64,000 bases of DNA from NCBI GenBank assembly GCA_944392835.1, contig CALXYB010000001.1, positions 62,001 to 126,000 on the forward strand, given 5' to 3'. Below are positions 724 to 47,302 of the stretch, one piece after another. The stretch's first letter is position 1; every line of letters starts with the position of its first letter. The notes beneath the pieces are model-generated. The model was not told the DNA's origin and made no database searches. It saw only the letters and a program-made list of their open reading frames with translations. The position numbers and the translations under genes were made by a program. The DNA is from an uncultured Alphaproteobacteria bacterium (GTDB lineage: Bacteria; Pseudomonadota; Alphaproteobacteria; RF32; CAG-239).

Positions 724-1407
724 TTATTTCTTAGCTTTTTTAGCTGTCTTTTTGCCTGCGGCCTTCTTTGTTGCAACAGCTTTTTTCTTAGCCGGAGCTT
801 TTACCTCAGCAACTTTTTTAGCTACAACGGCATTCTTTTTTTCAGCCTTCTTCTCTTTCTCAATTTTCTTAACATAATTGAGACTCTTTTGAAAATATTG
901 GTAACCCGTAATAAAGGTCAAAACACCGGCAATCCAAAGCAAAATCTCACCGATTCCGCCCCAAAGCCAAAAACCTTTCAAAAGCATCATAGACAAAGCA
1001 GTCATCTGAAAACCTGTTTTCCACTTTGCCAAACGTGTAACCGGCATACCGACTTTAACTTCCATCAAAAACTCGCGCAAACCGGAAACCAAAATCTCTC
1101 TGCACAAAATGACAATAACCGGAATATAACTCAGCTTACAAACCACCATCCCCGGCACAGCCAAGATTACGACCAAAGCAGACGTAACCAAAAGCTTGTC
1201 GGCAATTGGATCAAGCAAACGACCGAAAGCCGAAGTTTCGTTGCGTGCACGTGCCAAATAGCCGTCTAAATAATCGGTTATGGAAGCAACAATAAACAGC
1301 ACTGCCGCCAACAACTGCCAAACGGAAGCCTGAATATAAACCATCATAAAAATAACCGGAATAACCACAATACGTGAGATGGTCAAAAGATTAGGTAAGC
1401 TATACAC
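724..1407 (-). CDS. pgsA: CDP-diacylglycerol-glycerol-3-phosphate 3-phosphatidyltransferase with Lys/Ala-rich tail
   Basis: PgsA makes phosphatidylglycerophosphate, the committed step to phosphatidylglycerol and cardiolipin, in the inner membrane. The CDP-alcohol phosphotransferase signature is complete (Asp48-Gly49, Ala52-Arg53, Gly62, Asp66, Asp70) and is flanked by several hydrophobic helices. Start is GTG with an upstream AAAGGA. It follows uvrC, a neighbour pairing also seen in enterobacteria, and precedes a response regulator gene. The odd part is the C-terminus: residues about 180-227 carry 21 lysines plus many alanines, resembling a histone H1-like or AlgP-like tail that ordinary PgsA lacks. 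The enzyme call is firm; the role of the tail is unknown. Confidence 0.93.
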   Translation of the reverse strand: MYSLPNLLTISRIVVIPVIFMMVYIQASVWQLLAAVLFIVASITDYLDGYLARARNETSAFGRLLDPIADKLLVTSALVVILAVPGMVVCKLSYIPVIVILCREILVSGLREFLMEVKVGMPVTRLAKWKTGFQMTALSMMLLKGFWLWGGIGEILLWIAGVLTFITGYQYFQKSLNYVKKIEKEKKAEKKNAVVAKKVAEVKAPAKKKAVATKKAAGKKTAKKAKK

Positions 1408-1469
1408 TTTCTGCGTCCTTTTATAAAAATAAATTAGCGAAATTTTGCCCTTATCATAAGACAGATTTT

Positions 1470-3284
1470 TTATTTGTGGAAGTAATTAAAAATCTTTTCC
1501 GCCGTTTTTTTGCTGATTCCCTCCACTTTTTCCAAATCCTTAAGTGAGGCCTGTGAAATTTCTTCCACCGAACCAAAATAATTCAGCAAATCCTTTTTAC
1601 GACGAGCACCGATTCCATCCACCTCATCCAAGCGTGATTTTGAAATAGATTTTGCCCGATGTTTGCGGTGTGTTCCAATCGCAAAGCGGTGTGCCTCATC
1701 ACGCAAATTTTGCATATAAAAAGCTATCGGAGATTGGAACGGCAAAGCAAAACTTTCCCGTCCGACCATATGGTAAAATTCCTTACCCGCATTTCTCTCC
1801 GGACCTTTAGAGATAGCAATAATCACAATCCCCGACAAGTCAAAATCTTTTAAGGATTCGTGCACAGCATGCAACTGCCCCAAACCACCGTCCAGCAGAA
1901 TAACATCGGGCTTATTTTCCGGTGTCATCCGTTCAAACCTTCTGGTTAAGACCTCCTTCATCATTGCAAAGTCATCATTGGTGATGTCCGGATTTTTGAT
2001 ATTAAACGTCCTATATTGCTTTTTATCAAAGCCATCCGGCGTTGCCACCACCATCGCCCCGATGGCATAGCTACCCTGAATATGCGAGTTATCATAAATC
2101 TCAATGCGTTTCGGAATGCGTGGCAAACCAAAGATTTTGACAAACTCTTCCAAATTGCTCTTAACCGAGGCTTCTTCGGCAATTTTGCGTTCAATGGAAG
2201 CGAGCGCGTTTTCTTTAGCATTATTCGCCAATTTTGCTTTGTTGCCTTTTTGATAAGTATTGATTTTTGCTCCCGTTGCATCTTCCAAAAACTCTTTGTT
2301 TTCAAGCTCTTCGGAGAGAATAATCTCTTTAGGCGGAATATGTCTGGTATAAAAACTGCTTAGAAATGCTTCCAAAATTTCGGCATCTGTCGCTTCTTCG
2401 GTTTGCTTTGGAAAATATGGCACATTACCGCAGTTTTGTCCCGAACGCACAAAAAACACCTGAATACAAACCAAATTTCCTTTACGCGCCAAAGCAATAA
2501 TATCGGCTGACTTAATATCGGCATATTCCACTTGGTTACCATGCTGAATATTGGTCAAAGCCCGAATACGGTCGCGCAAAACCATCGCCAATTCATAATT
2601 TTGCTCATCGCTGGCTTCCTGCATTTTTTGTGATAATTCTTCTTGGATTTTAGAGTTCTTTCCTTCCAAAAAATCAACCGCTTCGCGCACCAAACGCCGA
2701 TATTCTTCCGGCGAAACTTTACCCACACAAGGTGCGGAACAACGCTTGATTTGATACATCAAACATGGTCTGTCCCGATGCTTAAACACGCTATCACGGC
2801 ATGTTCTGAGCAAAAAGGCTTTTTGCACAATATCAAGGGTTGAATTAACTGCCAACACACTGGCGAATGGCCCAAAATATTTGCTTTTGTCATGCCTTTT
2901 GCCGCGATATTTACGCAAACTCGGAAATTCTGATTGCACATCAATCACCAAATGCGGAAAAGTCTTGTCATCTTTAAGCAAAATATTATAACGCGGCTCA
3001 AGTTTCTTAATCAGCTCGTTTTCCATCAAAAGAGCTTTAGCCTCATTCTCAACAATAATAAACTCCATCCGCTTAATTTCGGAAACCATACGTTGCAAAC
3101 GCACGGGAAGCTTATCAATATGCGAATAAGCCACGATTCTTTTCTTAATATTTTTGGCTTTGCCCACATACAAAACCTTGTCATTTTCACCGAGCATCCG
3201 ATACACACCGGGTTTTTCGGGAGCGATTTTAATATTTTTGCGCAAAACTTCCAAACCGTGCTTAATATCAACCACTTTTTTCAA
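1470..3284 (-). CDS. uvrC: UvrABC excinuclease subunit C
   Basis: UvrC makes the dual incisions of nucleotide excision repair after UvrB loads on damage. The GIY-YIG nuclease domain is at the N-terminus (GVY at 26-28, YVG at 39-41), a UVR coiled-coil motif lies near residues 210-245, the RNase H-like C-terminal nuclease follows, and paired helix-hairpin-helix motifs finish the protein at about 550-604. At 604 residues the length is normal for the family. The first codon appears to be TTG, with an AGAAGAG run just upstream; a GTG three codons in is an alternative start. It heads a uvrC-pgsA-regulator gene string. Confidence 0.95.
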   Translation of the reverse strand: MKKVVDIKHGLEVLRKNIKIAPEKPGVYRMLGENDKVLYVGKAKNIKKRIVAYSHIDKLPVRLQRMVSEIKRMEFIIVENEAKALLMENELIKKLEPRYNILLKDDKTFPHLVIDVQSEFPSLRKYRGKRHDKSKYFGPFASVLAVNSTLDIVQKAFLLRTCRDSVFKHRDRPCLMYQIKRCSAPCVGKVSPEEYRRLVREAVDFLEGKNSKIQEELSQKMQEASDEQNYELAMVLRDRIRALTNIQHGNQVEYADIKSADIIALARKGNLVCIQVFFVRSGQNCGNVPYFPKQTEEATDAEILEAFLSSFYTRHIPPKEIILSEELENKEFLEDATGAKINTYQKGNKAKLANNAKENALASIERKIAEEASVKSNLEEFVKIFGLPRIPKRIEIYDNSHIQGSYAIGAMVVATPDGFDKKQYRTFNIKNPDITNDDFAMMKEVLTRRFERMTPENKPDVILLDGGLGQLHAVHESLKDFDLSGIVIIAISKGPERNAGKEFYHMVGRESFALPFQSPIAFYMQNLRDEAHRFAIGTHRKHRAKSISKSRLDEVDGIGARRKKDLLNYFGSVEEISQASLKDLEKVEGISKKTAEKIFNYFHK

Positions 3285-16708: not shown

Positions 16709-19102
16709 ATGAGACAATTGAGAAATTTAGCAGCTGCGACATTAGTAATGTTGCTCTGCGCAGTAGCTTTTGGAGGTTTTTTGACCTCTTGCGAAAATGG
16801 AATCGACGGTGAACCAACCTTCACCGCAAGTGTGAAAAAAGAATATATCAAAGTTCCAATCGAGGTGCATGACACCATATGGAACACGGTATACGACACC
16901 ACAACCGTGATTATCCGCGATACCGTGGATAATACGATTATCGTGCGCGATAGCATCATCGTTATCAAGCACGACACAGTCGAAATCAAGGTTGAGGTAA
17001 TCAAGAAAGAAGGGCTGGAGAAAAACGGCGAACCGGGTCTTGAGAAGATTGATGACAAGTCATACTTGACTTGGTATCCGCTTCTTGAGGACGGCAAGGA
17101 AATAGAGCCCGCAACCGAGCTCAACGTCCGCGCCAACATTGAGGACTGCAACCACGACATCATCGTCGTAAGCAGCCCGATTATCGGCGCACCCGCATTC
17201 TACGCCCAGAAGAGCACCCGTCAGTATCAAGACGGTGATTTTACCAAATTGGAATTCAAGGCAACTTGGGTTTACAACTTTGGTAGCTTCACTGAAAAGG
17301 TTAACACCGTGCACGAAGCTGCATGGTACAAGGGCTGGCAGATGCTATCCAGCTACTGGACTGGCGGCTTAAAGGCTGTAGAATATGGTGAAGGCGTTGC
17401 CTACACCTACGAAGGAATTGAAGGAATGTTGTATGAGAACACCCTCACATGGGAGTTCACTTACAATGAAAACGACGTGCGTACTTTCACAAAGACGCAT
17501 CGTTTCTTCGTTCCGGCAGAAGGTGGAGATACCCCCGAAGACCCAACGGAAAAGAAACTGACAGGATACGAGGAGAAAGAATGGGATGGAAACAATTCAT
17601 ACATTATTCGTCATTTCTACGATGACGGTACTTATGAAGACATTTCTGTAACAGACAATCTTCCTTGTACAGGAAGTGTTGAAGTTGAACAAGGAAGCCG
17701 CATCTTCCGTAACAACATCAGCTTTGGTAATCCGACAATTACCAAAAATGGTGAAGCTACAAAAGAAGGCTCATCTTCTACAAACAACAACATAACCCGT
17801 CAAGGTATGGTACAGCAAATGACTGCATTCTACGATGGATACAGCCATAATATGTCGTACCACTACACCACCAGAAGCTATAGTAAAGGTGGTTTAGCTC
17901 CTATACAGCTGTCAGTTCCAATGTGGACTTTGAATCTAAAACAGGCTATTGACGGAACTGTTCGTCAGGAAGTTGAAGACGGCAAAAACTATGATGTTAC
18001 GCCGATGACTTTCTTATACAGCACCGTCTTTGGTACAACTGCCAAAGAGGATAAGAACCACAACTTCGAAGTCTGGAAATATACAGGCGACGAAGTAACC
18101 GTAACCGGCATCCGCGTTGCAGACTTCGGATTAGAGTTTAGATCAAACACCACATCATACGCCTATGCAGAATTTTATTCTTTGTTCTCTGACGGAACAG
18201 AGAAGCTGTTAGGCAAAGACGGCGTTGAAATCTATAACTCTGTAGAAGCTCCTGCTGCTCAGGACGTTGAAAGTGCAGATTTCAACGTTGTTGATGCACA
18301 GCCGGTGGCTGGTTCTAAGCAACTTGTTAGCAGCCGTGAGGTTGCCTGCAAATTTGGGGGCAAGTTCTTGATCTCAAAATATCGTACGCTGTACACCACA
18401 AAGACCAATAAGGCCTCTGTAGTATTTACAGCTTACCACGAGGAAGTTGCTTACGTTCCTGAAAAAGGAAACAAAGTAAGCGACAGCGCTTGGGAAAAAG
18501 AATATAGCTTCGTTGACAACGGCTCATCAAGCCTCGTTGACCTCGGTCGCGAAAATGGCAAGGACGGTAAGATGTACAAATCTCAGATTAGTGCAACTTA
18601 CAACGGTCATGCCACAGACGCAGCCGCTCAGGTTAACGTATGGGTTGCTTCTCCGAACCAGTTTGGTATTGCCAGCGGTGCTCAGTCTCATACTTGGGAC
18701 TATAATAATGCACATCACGTAGCAACAATCTTCACTTACAACATCTATGAAAATGGACAGTTGATTGGTGGAGGTCTGAAAGGCTACATTGATGGCAAGG
18801 AAGTTACCAAAAAGACATGGTCTGAGGTAACCGTTCCGGCAAACGCTGTACTGGGTCTTGCTCAGAAGGCTAATGGAGAATGGGTTATCTGCCGCACTTA
18901 TCAAAACGGCGACGCATTTATGTGGCGCTCTATTGAGAATGCAAGCAACAATAGCCCGATTACTTCCATTGAAGCCAACCAAGTTCGCTTGGTAAACAAT
19001 GGCAAGGCAGAACTCTACATCGCATCCTCCTACACGGAAAATGCTGATGGTAGCGTAACTGTAAGCTCTGCTGAAGGTTCTGCTACTGCTGCTGCATGGT
19101 GA
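16709..19102 (+). CDS. Bacteroidetes-type surface lipoprotein of unknown function
   Basis: The 797-residue product has a lipoprotein signal peptide with lipobox LTSC at about residues 25-28, then a stretch of repeated RDT/HDT units (about 50-95) typical of Bacteroidetes cell-surface proteins, and a large beta-rich remainder with no recognised domain. Residues about 285-797 contain many Tyr/Thr-rich strands. The leader has no Shine-Dalgarno site and is A-rich, the Bacteroidetes style. C-ending codons (GAC, AAC, CGC) are much more frequent than in neighbours. It is followed by a related-leader outer-membrane gene, so both may form a surface pair. It is either horizontally acquired or an assembly chimera. 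Confidence 0.8.
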   Translation: MRQLRNLAAATLVMLLCAVAFGGFLTSCENGIDGEPTFTASVKKEYIKVPIEVHDTIWNTVYDTTTVIIRDTVDNTIIVRDSIIVIKHDTVEIKVEVIKKEGLEKNGEPGLEKIDDKSYLTWYPLLEDGKEIEPATELNVRANIEDCNHDIIVVSSPIIGAPAFYAQKSTRQYQDGDFTKLEFKATWVYNFGSFTEKVNTVHEAAWYKGWQMLSSYWTGGLKAVEYGEGVAYTYEGIEGMLYENTLTWEFTYNENDVRTFTKTHRFFVPAEGGDTPEDPTEKKLTGYEEKEWDGNNSYIIRHFYDDGTYEDISVTDNLPCTGSVEVEQGSRIFRNNISFGNPTITKNGEATKEGSSSTNNNITRQGMVQQMTAFYDGYSHNMSYHYTTRSYSKGGLAPIQLSVPMWTLNLKQAIDGTVRQEVEDGKNYDVTPMTFLYSTVFGTTAKEDKNHNFEVWKYTGDEVTVTGIRVADFGLEFRSNTTSYAYAEFYSLFSDGTEKLLGKDGVEIYNSVEAPAAQDVESADFNVVDAQPVAGSKQLVSSREVACKFGGKFLISKYRTLYTTKTNKASVVFTAYHEEVAYVPEKGNKVSDSAWEKEYSFVDNGSSSLVDLGRENGKDGKMYKSQISATYNGHATDAAAQVNVWVASPNQFGIASGAQSHTWDYNNAHHVATIFTYNIYENGQLIGGGLKGYIDGKEVTKKTWSEVTVPANAVLGLAQKANGEWVICRTYQNGDAFMWRSIENASNNSPITSIEANQVRLVNNGKAELYIASSYTENADGSVTVSSAEGSATAAAW

Positions 19103-19148
19103 TAAAACACCAGTGCAGTATGGATACGAGTAAAAAATTCACAAATTC

Positions 19149-19173
19149 CCCCTCGGCATAAAACCCCGAGGGG
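19149..19173 (+). terminator. GC-rich hairpin between the two island genes
   Basis: CCCCTCGG pairs perfectly with CCGAGGGG. There is no clear T-run and the next ATG is 17 bp away, so this may be an intercistronic stability hairpin rather than a terminator. Confidence 0.6.
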
Positions 19174-19190
19174 CCTAACTATAAAACTTT

Positions 19191-20039
19191 ATGAGACTTT
19201 TAAAAAATTTAGCAGTTGCCTTTGTAGCATTGGTGGCTGCAACAACAAATATAGTAAATGCGCAGGCACAGACCAGCGCGAGTGAAGTAAAATACGATTT
19301 TTCTGCAATCACCGAAACAGGTGATACCGCAGAAATCGACATGTCGTATGTTAATCTCGCCGACGCTTTTGGCGGCAAGCCGTACGACGTGAAGTTTAAA
19401 GATGGTGAGCCCAAAGCCACCATCATCACCGGCTGGTCACTCGGTATTTCTGGTGGACTGAACTCCTATATGGGAGCTCAGTACGGGATTTTTGCCAAAG
19501 GATACTTTGGCTGGTCTCACCTCAGCATAAATGCCGAAATAGGCGAGAACATGGAAATATCCAAAGAACTGGGACAAAAGTTCCGTTCTCTCGGAACTTC
19601 CGTAGACTTTGCCATTTCATTGGCGCATTGGGGAAATAAAAAATCTGTTAATACAACGGGCATGACTAGCTATCAAGCTAAGAAGGCTCACCGTAATGAA
19701 AAATACGGGAGGTTGTGGCGATTGTATGCTGGTCCCTCTGTAGGGTATCAGTATTGCAAAAATAACACAGATTTCCACTACGAGGACACCAACCCTGACG
19801 TGGACGTGCCCGGAACAGTGGATTTCCCCGTCGTAAAAGACGGCAACTCCGTTAAATACGGAGCAGTGATTGGACTTGAAAGACGTTTCTTTGGCAGCAT
19901 TACAAAAGTTGCCATTGAAGGTAGAGTAGAAACTTACTCTATAAAAGTCTTTCAAGAAAAAGAACAGCCGATTTACGGCTCAGTAAAAGTAACTATAGAG
20001 TTTGGCTTAGGCCGTCGCCCCAATGGTGGACGTTTCTAA
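19191..20039 (+). CDS. Bacteroidetes-like outer-membrane beta-barrel protein
   Basis: A signal peptide (cleavage near NAQA, about residue 25) precedes alternating amphipathic strands. The chain ends in strands such as SVKVTIEFGLG and then a short GRRPNGGRF tail. Strand-like segments GWSLGISGGLNSYMG and YGIFAKGYFGWSHLSINAEI support an outer-membrane barrel. The first 25 bases of the gene closely resemble those of the upstream lipoprotein gene (ATGAGAC...AATTTAGCAG), and the leader likewise lacks a ribosome site. I infer an outer-membrane partner of the lipoprotein. No specific family is recognised. Confidence 0.7.
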   Translation: MRLLKNLAVAFVALVAATTNIVNAQAQTSASEVKYDFSAITETGDTAEIDMSYVNLADAFGGKPYDVKFKDGEPKATIITGWSLGISGGLNSYMGAQYGIFAKGYFGWSHLSINAEIGENMEISKELGQKFRSLGTSVDFAISLAHWGNKKSVNTTGMTSYQAKKAHRNEKYGRLWRLYAGPSVGYQYCKNNTDFHYEDTNPDVDVPGTVDFPVVKDGNSVKYGAVIGLERRFFGSITKVAIEGRVETYSIKVFQEKEQPIYGSVKVTIEFGLGRRPNGGRF

Positions 20040-34082: not shown

Positions 34083-35399
34083 ATGACATTTTTGCCACAA
34101 GAAATCATCCGCAAAAAACGCAATCACCAAACTCTTACAAAAGAAGAGATAAGCTTTTTCATAAAAGGCGTAACCGATGGCTCTATTGTTGATGCCCAAA
34201 CCGCAGCTCTAACCATGGCCATTTTTCTCAATGGCTTTTCCAAGGAAGAAACCACTGCCCTAACCTTAAATATGCGCGATTCCGGCGATGTTCTGGATTG
34301 GTCTGAGGTCAATGGTCCGATTCTAGATAAACATTCCTCGGGCGGTGTCGGTGATAAAGTAAGCTTGATGCTAGCCCCGATGATTGCTGCTTGCGGCGGA
34401 TTCGTTCCGATGATTTCCGGTCGCGGACTAGGCCACACCGGCGGAACTTTAGACAAGTTTGATTCCATCCCCGGCTATCAAACAGCTCCGAGCAATGAAC
34501 TCTTCCGCAAAACGGTTAAGGAAGTTGGTTGCGCCATCATCGGACAAACAGGAAACTTAGCTCCTGCAGATAAAAAGATTTATGCCATCCGCGATGTTTG
34601 CGGCACGGTTGAATCCGTGGAGCTGATAACCGCCTCTATTCTATCCAAGAAACTTGCGGCCGGACTTGATTGTTTGGTAATGGATTTAAAATGCGGCAAC
34701 GGTGCTTTTATGGACAGCTTAGAAAACGCGCGCAAATTGGCTCACTCCATTGTTGATGTCGCCAATGCGGCAGGCACTAAAACTTCAGCAATTTTAACCG
34801 ATATGAATCAGGTTTTGGGACGCAATGTCGGCAATGCTTTGGAAGTTTTGGAGGCAGTTAATTACCTCAAAGGTATTGATGTTGACCCAAGGCTTCATCA
34901 AGTAACCATCGCGCTTTGTGCCGAACTTCTTGTTTCCGCAAATCTTGCCGAAAATAAAGCTCAAGCCGAAGCAAAATTGCAAAAAGCCTTGGATTCGGGG
35001 CAGGCTTTGGAGATTTTTGCGCATATGGTTTCAGCCTTGGGCGGACCTAAAGACTTCTGCGATTCCCCGAACAAATATCTGCCGCATGCCGCTTTGGTAA
35101 AACCTGTGTTTGCAGATAAATCCGGCTGGGTTACGAATATGCAAACCCGCAACATCGGCTTAAGTGTCATTGGCTTAAAAGGCGGACGCATTACGCCGGA
35201 GCAAAATCTTGATTACGCGACCGGCTATACCGAATTTTGCCAAATCGGCGAATATGTTGATGAGAACAAACCCTTGGCTGTTATTCACGCTCAGGACGAA
35301 AATTCTTGGCAACAAGCCGCTGATGAGCTCAAACGCAACATAAGCATTTCAGAGCAAAAACCGACCGAAAATCCGGTCATTATGGAACATATTTCATAA
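34083..35399 (+). CDS. deoA: Thymidine phosphorylase
   Basis: DeoA splits thymidine and deoxyuridine into base and deoxyribose-1-phosphate. The glycosyl-transferase-3 signatures KHSSGGVGDK and the SGRGLGHTGGTLDK segment are intact, and the C-terminal pyrimidine phosphorylase domain is present. ATG 34083 follows GAGAGG, one base after the deoC stop; a longer in-frame start overlaps deoC and is less likely. Confidence 0.95.
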   Translation: MTFLPQEIIRKKRNHQTLTKEEISFFIKGVTDGSIVDAQTAALTMAIFLNGFSKEETTALTLNMRDSGDVLDWSEVNGPILDKHSSGGVGDKVSLMLAPMIAACGGFVPMISGRGLGHTGGTLDKFDSIPGYQTAPSNELFRKTVKEVGCAIIGQTGNLAPADKKIYAIRDVCGTVESVELITASILSKKLAAGLDCLVMDLKCGNGAFMDSLENARKLAHSIVDVANAAGTKTSAILTDMNQVLGRNVGNALEVLEAVNYLKGIDVDPRLHQVTIALCAELLVSANLAENKAQAEAKLQKALDSGQALEIFAHMVSALGGPKDFCDSPNKYLPHAALVKPVFADKSGWVTNMQTRNIGLSVIGLKGGRITPEQNLDYATGYTEFCQIGEYVDENKPLAVIHAQDENSWQQAADELKRNISISEQKPTENPVIMEHIS

Positions 35400-38607: not shown

Positions 38608-39336
38608 ATGCAGGAGCTTCCCCTTCCCCATTACAATGAGCGCAAAACACCGATAGATATGCTGGTGCTCCATGCCACCTGCCATGATAATGCGCAAGAT
38701 GTTTTTGCAAGCCTAAACAAGCTGGAGCTAAGCTGCCACTACTTCATAGACCCGCAAGGAAACATTACGCGTATGGTTAATGACGAGCACCGCGCTTGGC
38801 ATGCGGGGCTTGGCTATTGGCGGGGGATTGACACGGATTTAAACTCCCATTCCATCGGCATAGAAATCGGCAATATGAGCTTGGGGCAAAAGGCTTTTCC
38901 TGCCCAACAAATCCAAAATCTTATTCCGCTCTGTCAGGAAATCATCAAAAAATACAACATCAAACCGCATAATGTCGTTGCCCATTCAGACATCGCCCCC
39001 ACACGCAAACCCGACCCCGGAAAATGCTTTCCATGGCAAGAACTCGCAAAAGCGGGGATTGGTCTGTGGTATGATATAAAAAATGCGGATTTGGTGGAAG
39101 AAGACAATCCACAAGAGTTGCTCAAAATCATCGGTTATGATACCGGAGATGAAGAAAAAACCATCGCTTCGGCTTATGCTTTCCGCCGCCGCTTTCTGCC
39201 GGAAGAAGTCGCCGAAGATAATGACATCCAACATTTGGTAGACAATGTTTATCCCAGAGGCAAAAAAGAACTCCTAAGCGGCAAAAAATTTTTGCAAACC
39301 CTAAAAACCGTTGCTTATACCTATAGCAAAGCCTAA
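38608..39336 (+). CDS. N-acetylmuramoyl-L-alanine amidase (AmpD type)
   Basis: An Amidase_2 domain cleaves muramic acid from the stem peptide. His22 (VLHATCH), a second His in WHAGLGYWRG and HSDIAPTRKPDPG supply the zinc site. No signal peptide is present, so it likely acts in the cytoplasm on recycled anhydromuropeptides, like AmpD. About 60 residues after the core form a helical domain resembling a peptidoglycan-binding fold. It fits with the LD-carboxypeptidase and Mur ligase near 58 kb. Confidence 0.88.
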   Translation: MQELPLPHYNERKTPIDMLVLHATCHDNAQDVFASLNKLELSCHYFIDPQGNITRMVNDEHRAWHAGLGYWRGIDTDLNSHSIGIEIGNMSLGQKAFPAQQIQNLIPLCQEIIKKYNIKPHNVVAHSDIAPTRKPDPGKCFPWQELAKAGIGLWYDIKNADLVEEDNPQELLKIIGYDTGDEEKTIASAYAFRRRFLPEEVAEDNDIQHLVDNVYPRGKKELLSGKKFLQTLKTVAYTYSKA

Positions 39337-39345
39337 ATTTCTTCA

Positions 39346-39373
39346 TTGAAAATTAGCAAATAATCCTTATAAT
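39346..39373 (+). promoter_or_regulatory. Promoter of the structured RNA
   Basis: TTGAAA, a 16-base spacer and a perfect TATAAT. The expected start near 39380 coincides with the first hairpin of the RNA. Confidence 0.7.
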
Positions 39374-39379
39374 CTTTTC

Positions 39380-39560
39380 TGCCGACAGATATGGTTAGTC
39401 TGTAGGCGGAGTATGACAGCTCCTTACTTAGAACCAATAATAACCTCCTGCTTATGGAGGATGGTGCGATATAAGCCGCTTTTGCGGACGAATAAGCACG
39501 CTGACTAAGTACAGCTGTCAACTCCTCCGCTCTCTCCCGAGAGCGGTTTTGTTTTTTTTT
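39380..39560 (+). ncRNA. Structured RNA with terminator, upstream of an HTH-like gene
   Basis: I do not recognise the family. Predicted parts in order: hairpin GCC-ACAGA/TCTGT-GGC (39381-39407); a long closing stem GACAGCT (39415) with AGCTGTC (39513) and ACTTAG (39426) with CTAAGT (39505); inside it hairpin CCTCC/GGAGG (39444-39460) and stem GTGC/GCAC with CCGC-TTTT-GCGG (39464-39499); then terminator CCGCTCTC-TCCC-GAGAGCGG with a T-run (39527-39560). The GGAGG could instead pair with CCTCC at 39524-39528, which would break the terminator, so it may be a leader attenuator as well as a free small RNA. Confidence 0.7.
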
Positions 39561-39584
39561 ACAAAACAACAGGAGTTGAACATT

Positions 39585-39824
39585 ATGAACGAAATTACAA
39601 AATCACATATCCGAACCGAATTTTTTAAAGAACTCGGTTTTGCGCTCTGGCAAGAGAGACGTAACAATCGCCACAACCTTATAAAAGTTGCACAAAAATC
39701 AAAACTTCCTCAAGGTCTGATAGACCAAATGGAAAGAGGAATTTGCAAAGACATTCATAAATATTTCCGCCTTTACACTTTGTATCAAAAAAAGATAAAA
39801 ATAAGCCTGATAAACAAAGATTAA
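39585..39824 (+). CDS. Small HTH-like protein
   Basis: This 79-residue basic protein is chosen to start at ATG 39585, with AGGAG nine bases upstream; an upstream in-frame start would add a poor N-terminus inside the RNA terminator. The middle (ALWQERRNNRHNLIKVAQKSKLPQGLIDQMERG) resembles a Cro/CI-type helix-turn-helix: an arginine-rich first helix, LIKVAQKSKL as helix 2, and LIDQMERG as the helix 3-4 turn. No other domain is present. It lies just after the structured RNA and may be regulated by, or regulate, it. The gene ends in its own terminator. Confidence 0.6.
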   Translation: MNEITKSHIRTEFFKELGFALWQERRNNRHNLIKVAQKSKLPQGLIDQMERGICKDIHKYFRLYTLYQKKIKISLINKD

Positions 39825-41740: not shown

Positions 41741-41848
41741 CATTAGGCACAAACTCAATATATGCATATTGGAAGCAACGCGGTTCAGCAATGGTTCGCG
41801 CCGCAGTCATTGCCGCGGTCAAGCTGGCAACAGCTTGCAAACTTTTTG
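41741..41848 (-). repeat. H-element extended module, copy D
   Basis: Shares TATGCATATTGGAAGCAACG and CGGTTCA with the other modules, the block GCCGCGGTCAAGCTGG, and the hairpin CAAGCTG-GCAA-CAGCTTG. It runs straight into core D. Confidence 0.85.
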
Positions 41849-42074
41849 AAAAGTTTGGAGAACGAGGTAAATAATAAGAAATAAAGGCGAAAGTACCCTG
41901 CCGCAAAAGAAAGCACCCAAATGTGCTTTCTTTAAGGAAAAGCAATGAGACTTTCCTTTGTTAGAATGCGACAGCTTTCGCAACAAAGGTATAGTCGGAA
42001 TTGGTACAAAGAGGTACGTGAGGAAACTTTCGCCCTGCAATTTCTGTATTAGTTACCCGTTATACAAACTTTTT
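41849..42074 (-). repeat. H-element, full copy D with internal insertion, abutting the lepA stop codon
   Basis: Outer arms AAAAGTTTG/CAAACTTTTT, second block GTAA/GTAA and inner stem GGCGAAAGT/ACTTTCGCC match copy E, but about 108 bases (41896-42003) replace the left side of the tip. The lepA stop TAA (42073-42075) overlaps the right end. Confidence 0.9.
41896..42003. repeat. Two-hairpin insert within copy D
   Basis: The insert holds hairpin GAAAGCAC/GTGCTTTC (41909-41930) and a nested hairpin CCTTTGTT with AACAAAGG enclosing GCGA/TCGC (41955-41989). It is absent from the closely related copy E. I see no other copy in the window. Confidence 0.75.
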
Positions 42075-43878
42075 ATTTGTCGCCAATACGCAACGCCTCA
42101 ATAAACGCCGATTGCGGAACTTCTACCTTGCCGAACTGGCGCATTCTGAGCTTACCTTTTTTCTGCTTATCCAAGAGCTTGCGTTTACGCGTGATATCAC
42201 CGCCATAACATTTTGCCGTAACATCTTTGCGCAGAGCAGAGATTGTTTCGCGCGCAACCACACGTCCGCCGATAGCTGCTTGGATTGGAATTTTGAACAA
42301 ATGTCTGGGGATGAGGTCTTTTAAGCGTTCACAAATCTGGCGCCCGCGCGATTCCGCCTCGGAACGGTGGCACAAAAAGGCCAAGGCATCAACTGGCTCT
42401 TCATTAATCAAAATTTGCACCTTAACCAAATCCGCTTCTTCATAACCGACCAACTCGTAGTCAAAACTTGCATAGCCGCTGGTAATGGATTTAAGACGGT
42501 CATAAAAGTCAAAAACAATCTCGTTCAAGGGGATTTTATAAACCACCATTGCGCGATTCCCGACATAGGTCAACTCGTGCTGTTCACCACGGCGCTCGGT
42601 ACAAAGTTTTAAGACCGCACCCAAATATTCGTCCGGCACCATAATGGTAGCTTTAACCATCGGTTCCTCAATAAACGAAACTTGCGAGAGGTCTGGCATA
42701 TCTGCCGGATTATGCAGCGTAATGATTTCGCCGTTGGTCATATGAATTTTATAAGCAACGGAGGGAGCTGTCGTAATTAAGTCAAGGTCAAACTCGCGCC
42801 CCAAGCGTTCCTGAATAATCTCCATATGCAACAAGCCCAAAAAGCCGCAACGAAAACCCAAACCCAAAGCGGCCGAATTTTCGTTTTGATAATCTATGCT
42901 GGCATCATTGAGTTTGAGCTTGGCAAGTGCGTCTTTAAGACTTTCATACTGCGAACTGTCCACCGGAAAGATAGAGCAGAATACAACGGGGATTGAGGGC
43001 TTAAAACCATGCAAAGCCTCCGCACAAGGATTTTTATTATCCGTAATCGTATCACCGACCCGACAATCGCTCACACTTTTAATGCTGGCAGTCAAGAAAC
43101 CGACTTCGCCTGGATAAAGAGCCTCAATATCCTGCATCTTTGGCGTAAAGATACCGACTTTTTCAACCTGATATGTGGCATTATTGCTCATCATCCGAAT
43201 TTGCATTTTTTTCTTAAGCACACCGTCTTTAATGCGCACCAAAATAACCACGCCGAGATAGGGATCATACCAGCTATCAATCAACAAAGCTTGAAGTGGC
43301 GCTTCCGCATTTCCTGAAGGTGCAGGCAAACGTTGTACTATGGCTTCCAACAAGTCTTGCACACCCAAACCGGTTTTGCCTGAGGTTTCAACCGCATCAG
43401 AGGCATCCAAGCCGATAACATCTTCAATCTGTTGCTTAACTCTTTGCACATCGGCAGAAGGCAAATCTACTTTGTTCAAGACCGGTACAATCTCATGGTT
43501 ATTATCCAATGCCAAATAGACATTTGCCAAAGTTTGCGCTTCCACACCTTGGGTCGCATCCACCACCAAGACCGAACCTTCGCAAGAAGCCAAAGAGCGT
43601 GAAACCTCATAAGAAAAGTCCACATGCCCCGGCGTATCCATCAAGTTAAGCTGATAAGTCTTGCCGTCTTTGGCCTGATAATTAAGCCGAACGGTCTGAG
43701 CTTTGATGGTAATACCGCGCTCTTTTTCAATATCCATGGAATCCAGCACTTGCTCGGTCATCTCACGGCGTTCCAAGCCGCCGCAATACTCAATCATTCT
43801 GTCGGCAAGGGTAGACTTTCCGTGGTCAATATGTGCAATAATGGCAAAATTTCTGATTAAATTCAAATCGGTTGTCAT
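42073..43878 (-). CDS. lepA: Elongation factor 4 (LepA)
   Basis: EF4 is a ribosome-associated GTPase that back-translocates or rescues stalled elongation. The GTPase motifs [18 protein letters not shown] and NKVD (with SGKTGLG) are intact, and the C-terminal EF4-specific domain with [17 protein letters not shown] is present. ATG 43878 ([11 protein letters not shown]) matches the family N-terminus; a longer in-frame start is less likely. The stop codon is embedded in the repeat element. Confidence 0.96.
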
Positions 43879-45390: not shown

Positions 45391-45499
45391 ACACAGAGCA
45401 CATAAGCAAGATATGCACTCTGGAAGCAACGCGGTTCAACAAAGCTCGACAAAACAGCCATTGCCGCGGTCAAGCTGGCAACAGCTTGCAAACTTTTTG
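45391..45499 (-). repeat. H-element extended module, copy E
   Basis: Nearly the same as the copy D module over ATTGCCGCGGTCAAGCTGG and the hairpin CAAGCTG-GCAA-CAGCTTG, with a more variable left half. Confidence 0.85.
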
Positions 45500-45624
45500 A
45501 AAAGTTTGGAGAACGAGGTAAATAATAAGAAATAAAGGCGAAAGTAACGCAGCGTACAAAGAGGTACGTGAGGAAACTTTCGCCCTGCAATTTCTGTATT
45601 AGTTACCCGTTATACAAACTTTTT
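45500..45624 (-). repeat. H-element, full copy E, abutting the ettA stop codon
   Basis: Outer arms AAAAGTTTG/CAAACTTTTT, second block GTAA/GTAA, inner stem GGCGAAAGT/ACTTTCGCC, tip GCGTAC/GTACGT. This is the most regular copy. The ettA stop (45623-45625) overlaps the right end. Confidence 0.92.
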
Positions 45625-47302
45625 ATCGGGTAAGCTTCCGATACTTAACAGCATGAGGAATCAAGGCATCATCACCGAGACGACGTTTTTTGTCTTTTTC
45701 ATATTCCTCAAAGTTACCCTCGAACCAAACAACTTGGCTGTCGCCTTCATAAGCAAGGATATGTGTTGCCAAACGGTCCAAGAACCAACGGTCGTGAGAG
45801 GTAACCAAAACACAGCCCGGATATTCCATAATACCTTCTTCCAGTGAGCGAAGCGTATCAACATCCAAATCATTAGTCGGCTCGTCAAGCAAAATAACAT
45901 TTGCGCCTTTTTTGAGCATTTTGGCTAAGTGCACACGGTTGCGCTCACCACCGGAAAGCTGCCCAACCTTTTTCTGCTGGTCTCCGCCTTTGAAGTTAAA
46001 TTGTCCGACATAAGCGCGTGAGAGCATCTCTTTTTTACCGAGCTGAATCATATCTAGGCCGTCAGAAATTTCTTCCCAAACAGTTTTGTTTGCATCAAGC
46101 TCATCACGTCCTTGGTCAACATAGCCCAAATCAACGGTTTCACCGATTCTGATTTCGCCGGAATCCGGTTTTTCCTGTCCCGTAATCATACGGAAGAGCG
46201 TGGTTTTACCGGCACCGTTCGGTCCGATAATACCAACAATCGCACCCTTGGGAATTTTGAAAGAAAGGTTATCAATCAGCAATCTATCGCCATAACCTTT
46301 AGAAATGTTGTTTGCCTCAATAACCAAATCACCCAATCTGTCCGTCATCGGAATATTGATATGAGCTTGCGTAATTTTATCCTTGGTTGCAGCGTTCAAA
46401 AGTTCATCATAGGCATTGATACGCGCCTTAGACTTTGCCTGACGCGCTTTAGGATTCTTGCGTATCCATTCCAACTCGTTCGCCAAAGTCTTCTGACGAG
46501 CGGTTTCTTCCCTAGCCTCTTGCTCCAAACGTTTTTGTTTTTGCTCCAACCAAGAGGAATAGTTGCCCTCGTAAGGGATTCCCTGTCCACGGTCAAGCTC
46601 CAGAATCCAACCCGTAACATTGTCAAGGAAGTAGCGGTCGTGTGTAACCATAACCACCGTTCCCTTATATTCCTTAAGGTGATTTTCAAGCCAAGCAACC
46701 GATTCGGCATCCAAATGGTTGGTCGGCTCGTCAAGCAAAAGCATATCAGGTTTCTGGAGCAACAAACGGCACAAAGCCACACGACGTTTTTCACCACCGG
46801 AAAGTTTGGTAACATCGGCATCTGCCGGCGGACAACGCAAAGCATCCATTGCAATCTGGATGGTGCGTTCAAAATTCCAGCCATCGCAGGCATCAATTTT
46901 TTCAGACAATGCAGCTTGTTCTTCAATCAGCGCATTCATCTCATCATCGCTCATCGGTTCGGCAAACTTGGCAGAAACTTCTTCAAATCGCTTTAACAAA
47001 TCACGCGTTTCACCCAAACCATCCATAATATTTTCCATCACGGTCTTGGTCGGGTCAAGTTTCGGCTCTTGCTCCAAATAGCCAACCTTTACACCGTCTG
47101 CAGCCCAAGCTTCACCGTTAAATTCTTTATCCACGCCAGCCATAATTTTCAGCAACGTAGACTTACCGGCACCATTCACACCGAGCACGCCGATTTTGGC
47201 CCCCGGCAGAAAAGACAACGTAATTCCCTTAAACAACTCCTTGCCGCCGGGAAAAACTTTGGTAAGATTCTGCATAACGAAAATATACTGATAAGATGCC
47301 AT
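45623..47302 (-). CDS. ettA: Energy-dependent translational throttle EttA (ABC-F)
   Basis: EttA is an ABC-F ATPase that binds the ribosomal E site and gates the first elongation cycle by energy state. Two ABC cassettes are seen: [11 protein letters not shown] with LSGGEKRR and [11 protein letters not shown], then [11 protein letters not shown] with LSGGERNR and [10 protein letters not shown]. The arm insertion follows the first Walker A and the linker region has the usual Arg/Lys-rich helices. ATG 47302 follows AGGAG. The stop codon lies in the repeat element. Confidence 0.95.

Follow-up and report, generated by a model that had tools for sequence, protein, structure and literature searches.

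The c4 RNA of the phages P1 and P7 (Rfam C4, RF01695, clan CL00128; upstream sites c4-a1b1, RF03163) is a same-strand antisense RNA that is cut from a leader and has a core of a closing stem and two hairpins; RNase P excises it by cutting at a GG, ribosome sites are covered by its b' loop, and it occurs in multiple copies in Acinetobacter baumannii (PMC5320573). Sites complementary to c4 lie upstream of it (a1b1) and at a ribosome site (a2b2): the P1 record annotates a1/b1, then c4, then a2/b2 at the ribosome site of icd, and P1 itself matches the C4 model at 68.8 bits. Another RNA, sRNA-Xcc1 (RF02221), is widespread in the phylum. In Xanthomonas it is abundant, 88 nt long by end mapping and visible as a free RNA on Northern blots (PMC2996969), the Xanthomonas cassette has symE just downstream (PMC12444791), and five clustered copies are found in Xylella (PMC12189769). 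In the case of IsrK, from the prophage Gifsy-1, one promoter gives two interacting transcripts, a short one that is terminated and an mRNA made by read-through, with alternative ribosome-site structures, and the CI RNA of phage P4 pairs with seqA upstream and with seqC downstream (PMC4825925). In Rfam, sRNA-Xcc1 and c4 share no clan, and our literature search found no paper linking sRNA-Xcc1 to a c4-type design.

The locus described here lies in a window (the whole stretch of DNA analysed, 64,000 nucleotides) from an uncultured alphaproteobacterium. We read it, with a probability of roughly two in three, as a module of the c4 / sRNA-Xcc1 type in which a same-strand antisense RNA gates a small XRE-type DNA-binding protein. 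The identity of the RNA is well supported, while the way in which it switches is something we infer from predicted folds and from relatives. Its parts are the following, in window coordinates.

39319-39813, + strand: whole cassette, comprising promoter, RNA, terminator, ribosome site and HTH gene; the corresponding site is empty in G003, G004 and G005
39346-39373, + strand: promoter, with -35 TTGAAA (39346-39351), 16-nt spacer and -10 TATAAT (39368-39373); 11 of 12 positions agree with the consensus
39380-39556, + strand: structured RNA (precursor), from the predicted start to the end of the T-run; fold z -7.3, covariation
39381-39407, + strand: hairpin P1 with the conserved loop GGTTA (39393-39397); 6 of 8 pairs covary
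39408-39432, + strand: strand x, the 5' strand of P2, with GGAGT (39408-39412), b1 (39414-39421) and a1 (39425-39432); covarying helix with x*
39444-39448, + strand: segment A, CCTCC, the 5' strand of P3, predicted to pair with B in the precursor; P3 covaries in the wide set
39456-39461, + strand: segment B, GGAGGA, with A (P3) or C as partner; B:C covaries and is the closing helix of the RF02221 model
39464-39499, + strand: hairpin P4 with the conserved internal loop GAWATAAG / CGAATAAG; both stems covary and the loop is near-invariant
39501-39520, + strand: strand x*, with a' (39504-39511) and b' (39513-39520); covaries with x
39521-39528, + strand: segment C, ACTCCTCC, a hub with three possible partners (GGAGT of x, B, ribosome site); covariation
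39527-39556, + strand: intrinsic terminator CCGCTCTC-TCCC-GAGAGCGG and T-run; 5 of 8 pairs show two-sided changes
39571-39579, + strand: ribosome site AGGAGTTGA, which is x', a copy of x; 9-bp match, covaries with x* across copies
39585-39824, + strand: small HTH gene, 79 aa, XRE/HipB/C-protein-like

The stretch is confirmed as a genuine structured RNA with a promoter of its own and an end just before a small DNA-binding gene. As the initial annotation had proposed, the promoter is near consensus, and the predicted start, at about 39380, is the first base before P1; among copies it is kept as TTG(A/C)AA...TATAAT, also ahead of every unit in tandem arrays. The multi-stem body and the terminator with T-run that had been claimed are likewise present: the RNA folds at -78.7 kcal/mol against a mean of -49.2 for shuffled sequences (none of 200 as good), forming P1, the long P2 (x with x*), P3 (A with B), P4 and the terminator, whose stem at 39527-39546 is followed by the T-run. 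In a MAFFT alignment of 39 copies, fitted to no structure, 96.7% of pairs are kept and two-sided changes occupy 286 cells, in 27 of 53 pairs, where shuffles gave 87.8 cells and slid structures no more than 52; wider, model-fitted alignments gave 913 against 262 and 1126 against 303 in shuffles. A candidate pseudoknot joins the P1 loop GGTTA to TAACC (39441-39445); the two are paired in 99% of cells of the 39-copy alignment, with one-sided changes only, and in one locus (L083) both halves are absent together. Sequence signals, covariation and copy pattern are thus shown. A leader peptide encoded by GGAGGATG was also considered and rejected, the reading frame being broken in other copies. Directly 3' of the terminator, at 39547-39570, most copies have a hairpin GTTTTG..CAAAAC and others the two-sided change GGTTTC..GAAACC; such recurrence and two-sided change mean that the hairpin may hold the T-run in paired form in a read-through transcript; it could equally be a DNA operator palindrome, which would look the same.

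The GGAGG of segment B (39456-39460) and the two CCTCC stretches at 39444-39448 and 39524-39528 are where the initial annotation had put them, and the alternative pairing with the second of these, which it had taken for a possible switch, is real. The GGAGG:CCTCC helix is invariant within the genus and therefore uninformative at that level; across genera, B/C appear as GGUGGAG/CUCCACC, GAGGGAG/CUCCCUC, CGGAUGU/ACAUCCG, AAGGGGAG/CUCCCCUU and CGGAAGGAG/CUCCUUCCG. Native B:C partners (31 distinct C types) pair at -14.1 kcal/mol and swapped ones at -11.3, and C pairs with its own ribosome site at -11.6 and with swapped ones at -9.7 kcal/mol, values reached in 0 of 5000 permutations in both cases, in a test that, as the tree is not modelled, does not fully correct for relatedness. 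B:C was tried as an antiterminator and rejected: in the sRNA-Xcc1 model this helix closes the RNA, and its most plausible role here is likewise to close an sRNA-Xcc1-like core. The helix overlaps the terminator arm by 2 nt in the window and by 3-4 nt in distant families. The ribosome site AGGAGTTGA is, in turn, perfectly complementary to TCAACTCCT (39518-39526), and in distant families ribosome site and x* change jointly: CUUCC/GGAAG (L216), AACCUCC/GGAGGUU (L220), CUAACUCC/GGAGUUAG (L221) and AACAUCC/GGAUGUU (L131). When the window RNA is folded, the predicted probability of x* pairing with the ribosome site is 0.06 with x and 0.94 after removal of x at segment B, and over 37 genus copies the mean goes from 0.41 with x to 0.87 without it, a shift which fits a module with two products.

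This genome holds seven copies by BLAST (75-100% identity) and eight or nine by covariance models, at scattered chromosomal sites, and every genome of the genus, which includes 'Azospirillum sp. CAG:239', carries several. The search of Alphaproteobacteria with a covariance model, recommended in the initial annotation, gave many matches: model R1, built from 39 copies, matches 95 of 126 family genomes, and the broader model R2 matches 76 of the 83 genomes of the order, in all 15 genera, the richest genomes having 27 and at least 34 copies (R2). Outside the order, matches come from about 25 of some 380 sampled genomes of the class, in about 18 families. In three close relatives with flanks 91-98% identical (G003, G004, G005), precisely the 495 bp of this cassette are missing, and the final codons of its HTH gene fall within flank that the empty site has as well; two other relatives have a cassette adjoining tolB, but with a different HTH gene, and in G029, G036 and G098 one HTH gene is preceded by several RNA units in tandem, every one of which has its own promoter and terminator. 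Viral contigs gave 0 exact matches to the genus core pattern and thus no sign of direct carriage by phages, and a literature search on this lineage and noncoding RNA found nothing.

Within one genome, the a1/a' strands of a copy pair with each other at -7.8 kcal/mol and with those of other copies at -1.8, and the b pairs at -9.2 and -2.8 kcal/mol, respectively. Between near-identical copies the a-arm differs at 28.9% of sites and the core at 4.5%. Of 60 changed pairs in this arm, 44 are compensated on both sides; the loci L040/L041 and L059/L075 are almost identical except for this arm. The a-arm is hypervariable yet compensated, its sequence private to each copy, and this pattern suggests that a1/a' may serve as a private address, in which case the many copies of one genome would not act on one another. 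What these genomes hold is probably a set of many similar antisense-RNA switches, privately addressed by the look of their arms and multiplied in mostly gut-derived Alphaproteobacteria.

The link to an HTH-like gene made by the initial annotation extends to the whole genus: a small HTH gene lies 3' of the RNA in all 41 copies with enough downstream sequence, at a near-constant distance, and likewise in 58 of 67 copies of the family set and 7 of 22 of the distant set, some relatives having a non-HTH gene downstream, or none. The HTH proteins are diverse (30% mean column identity), and their profile matches C.BclI, ClgR, HigA and HipB. For the window protein a four-helix XRE-type domain is predicted (pLDDT 90.6), with HipB and C proteins as best folds in Foldseek (E-values 0.007 and above, probability 1.00). 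At L229 and L145 this RNA type precedes the gene of a longer, PxPIDIHVGxR-type XRE regulator, which may be the ancestral partner. In distant families (L223, L216, L224, L225, L130, L131) the genes that follow the RNA are of outer-membrane, lipoprotein or TM2 type and their ribosome sites match it, which means that the module is not limited to DNA-binding proteins.

A match to a known Rfam RNA, named by the initial annotation as grounds for abandoning its proposal, is lacking for the window and present for its relatives. At gathering cut-offs the whole window has no Rfam match, and a tRNA/tmRNA search found none; its best weak match is sRNA-Xcc1 (39453-39539, 18.6 bits, E 0.94; cut-off 53). Among distant relatives, L215 passes that cut-off with 56.2 bits and L222 scores 51.7, and Rfam searches of distant loci return RF02221 repeatedly, at the same place and with its model closed by the B:C helix. 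Because R2 finds L215 (69.9 bits) and L215 passes RF02221, the weak match of the window is best read as real homology by way of intermediates. The core fold of RF02221, a closing helix and two hairpins, is found here too: B:C, P4, the 3' single strand and a local hairpin CTG..CAG, which x* could form as an alternative, align with the model. Like the window RNA, sRNA-Xcc1 (Xanthomonas, integron cassettes) is multi-copy and occurs in tandem (PMC12189769), lies ahead of small DNA-binding genes, in its case for example symE (PMC12444791), and in its true members has a strand x on the upstream side that is repeated where ribosomes bind the following gene. In 23 true sRNA-Xcc1 loci, x* pairs with the upstream strand at -33.3 kcal/mol (swapped, -25.1) and with the downstream ribosome site at -22.7 kcal/mol (swapped, -20.3), with 0 of 5000 permutations in each case and the same limited correction for relatedness; at one of these loci (L259) the upstream CCTAAGAAACGCCTAAACCAGAG is copied downstream as CCTAAGAAAGCAGCCAGAGG. 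Genes after such loci include the SymE toxin, Bro-N and KilA-N. Unlike sRNA-Xcc1, the window RNA has a conserved precursor part (P1, long P2) and a T-run terminator after x*, its partner is a small XRE-type HTH gene, and at least 34 copies occur in one genome; in the genus, moreover, x is repeated at the ribosome site in its b/C part only, without the a part, in which canonical loci differ. By analogy with the 88-nt RNA, segment B is the expected 5' end of an sRNA-Xcc1-like mature form. At L215 (genome G322) two sRNA-Xcc1-like RNAs, at 1203-1408 (-) and 1501-1698 (+), are divergent and about 100 nt apart. On contig C7 of the window's own genome (G000), two further weak RF02221 matches at 66307-66392 (34.0 bits) and 34623-34713 (27.9 bits) lie outside the seven BLAST copies.

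With C4 (RF01695), neither the window RNA nor its distant relatives gave a match in Rfam searches. The three-part complementarity of upstream site, RNA and ribosome site of the next gene is present as in c4, and segment B begins with GG, the type of site described for cleavage of c4 by RNase P (PMC5320573). The two systems differ in order (a-b in P1 c4, b-a in the window cassette), in the place of the terminator (between a1b1 and c4 in P1, after x* here) and in target (icd/ant and the HTH gene, respectively). IsrK shares with the cassette the single promoter, the short terminated RNA and read-through mRNA and the alternative ribosome-site structures (PMC4825925), but it activates translation in trans, and the isrK model of Rfam does not match the window RNA. 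The likeness to P4 CI lies in the pairing upstream and downstream, whereas CI acts on transcription termination. A type III toxin-antitoxin system does not fit, the downstream protein being a 79-aa HTH protein and not an endoribonuclease toxin. The window RNA would act in the manner of c4, and it is distantly related to sRNA-Xcc1; by curated score it is a member of neither.

In the mechanism that we propose, one promoter would give two products, a terminated RNA and the HTH mRNA. The majority of transcripts would end at the terminator, as a free RNA about 175 nt long, an efficiency assumed from the signals present, and some would read through into the HTH gene. Pairing of x* with the upstream x, with which it covaries, would leave the ribosome site open. 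Two events would free x* and segment C: processing at segment B that removes x, as for c4 of P1 and for sRNA-Xcc1 with its 88 nt, or the binding of x by a sister RNA. Both could then pair with x' at the ribosome site, to which they are complementary and with which they covary, and translation would be shut. The closing x* may come from the same or from a sister transcript, trans action and the direction of control being presumed, and segment B, as its covariation with both partners suggests, would have A as its partner in the precursor and C after maturation. The attenuator and the free regulatory RNA that the initial annotation had offered both come close to this reading, because both seem to derive from one transcript; its riboswitch, if understood as ligand-controlled, does not, given the hypervariable partner strands and a design made up of self-complementary x/x*/x' segments like those of P1 c4.

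Such a riboswitch or attenuator in cis, where a ligand or protein at the P4 loop would choose between P2, B:C and the terminator or blocked ribosome site with no RNA acting in trans, would account for the complex multi-helix fold with its near-invariant P4 internal loop, pseudoknot, terminator and ribosome-site pairing, and also for the diverse downstream genes in distant families. We consider it improbable: within the order the genes are nearly all for small DNA-binding proteins and make up no pathway, the tandem units have a promoter and a terminator each and no gene between them, the x/x* arms are private and hypervariable, and the relatives are a known free RNA on Northern blots (PMC2996969). 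A free RNA silencing many unrelated messages in trans through its CUCC-rich segments, with the neighbouring gene as a passenger, is less probable still. The CUCC-rich hub segment does resemble an anti-ribosome-site element, and sRNA-Xcc1 is described as trans-acting in a title cited in PMC12444791, but the neighbouring ribosome site covaries with the RNA and a small gene follows nearly all copies at a near-constant distance.

Doubtful, though the least unlikely of the rivals, is an RNA-controlled toxin or addiction module, in which the HTH protein would be harmful if over-made, the RNA would be an antitoxin as in type I systems and copies would arise by selfish spread. Its predicted HTH fold resembles antitoxins and regulators (HipB, C proteins) rather than toxins; in its favour, canonical relatives precede SymE (PMC12444791) and P1 c4 precedes icd, whose product inhibits cell division, closely related genomes differ by the gain or loss of cassettes, and tandem RNA units increase the RNA dose. 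A module of this sort is compatible with the same-strand antisense reading, of which it would be the purpose. That the repeats are non-functional or remnants of a mobile element, as their multiple copies and their presence or absence between close relatives might suggest, is scarcely credible; strong compensatory change and the conservation of promoters, terminators and reading frames contradict it.

Elsewhere in the window, intergenic repeats lie around the lepA region, one pair at 41747-41895 / 45398-45546 (88% over 149 nt) and another at 42004-42076 / 45554-45626 (100% over 73 nt), which suggests a repeated or mobile element. At 16709-20039, two large reading frames without a close Pfam match, one of them with a weak OMP beta-barrel match, have sequences that resemble Bacteroidetes surface proteins; an acquired segment or an assembly join is possible.

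Tentatively, and with somewhat less than even confidence, we suggest that small genomes of this group may carry up to dozens of insulated RNA-gated HTH switches, whose a1/a' arms would be selected to diverge and which would multiply by duplication and re-addressing, and that the RNA may form one superfamily with sRNA-Xcc1 and c4. If true, this would be a natural library of orthogonal RNA regulators in small-genome, mostly gut-derived Alphaproteobacteria. The results in themselves reveal a large expansion of such modules in a poorly known gut-associated bacterial group. They also provide a testable mechanism for sRNA-Xcc1, a widespread RNA of unexplained function, because its loci carry a three-part antisense design like that of phage c4, and the private, fast-changing arms offer a naturally occurring collection of insulated RNA switches and a route to the evolution of antisense specificity.
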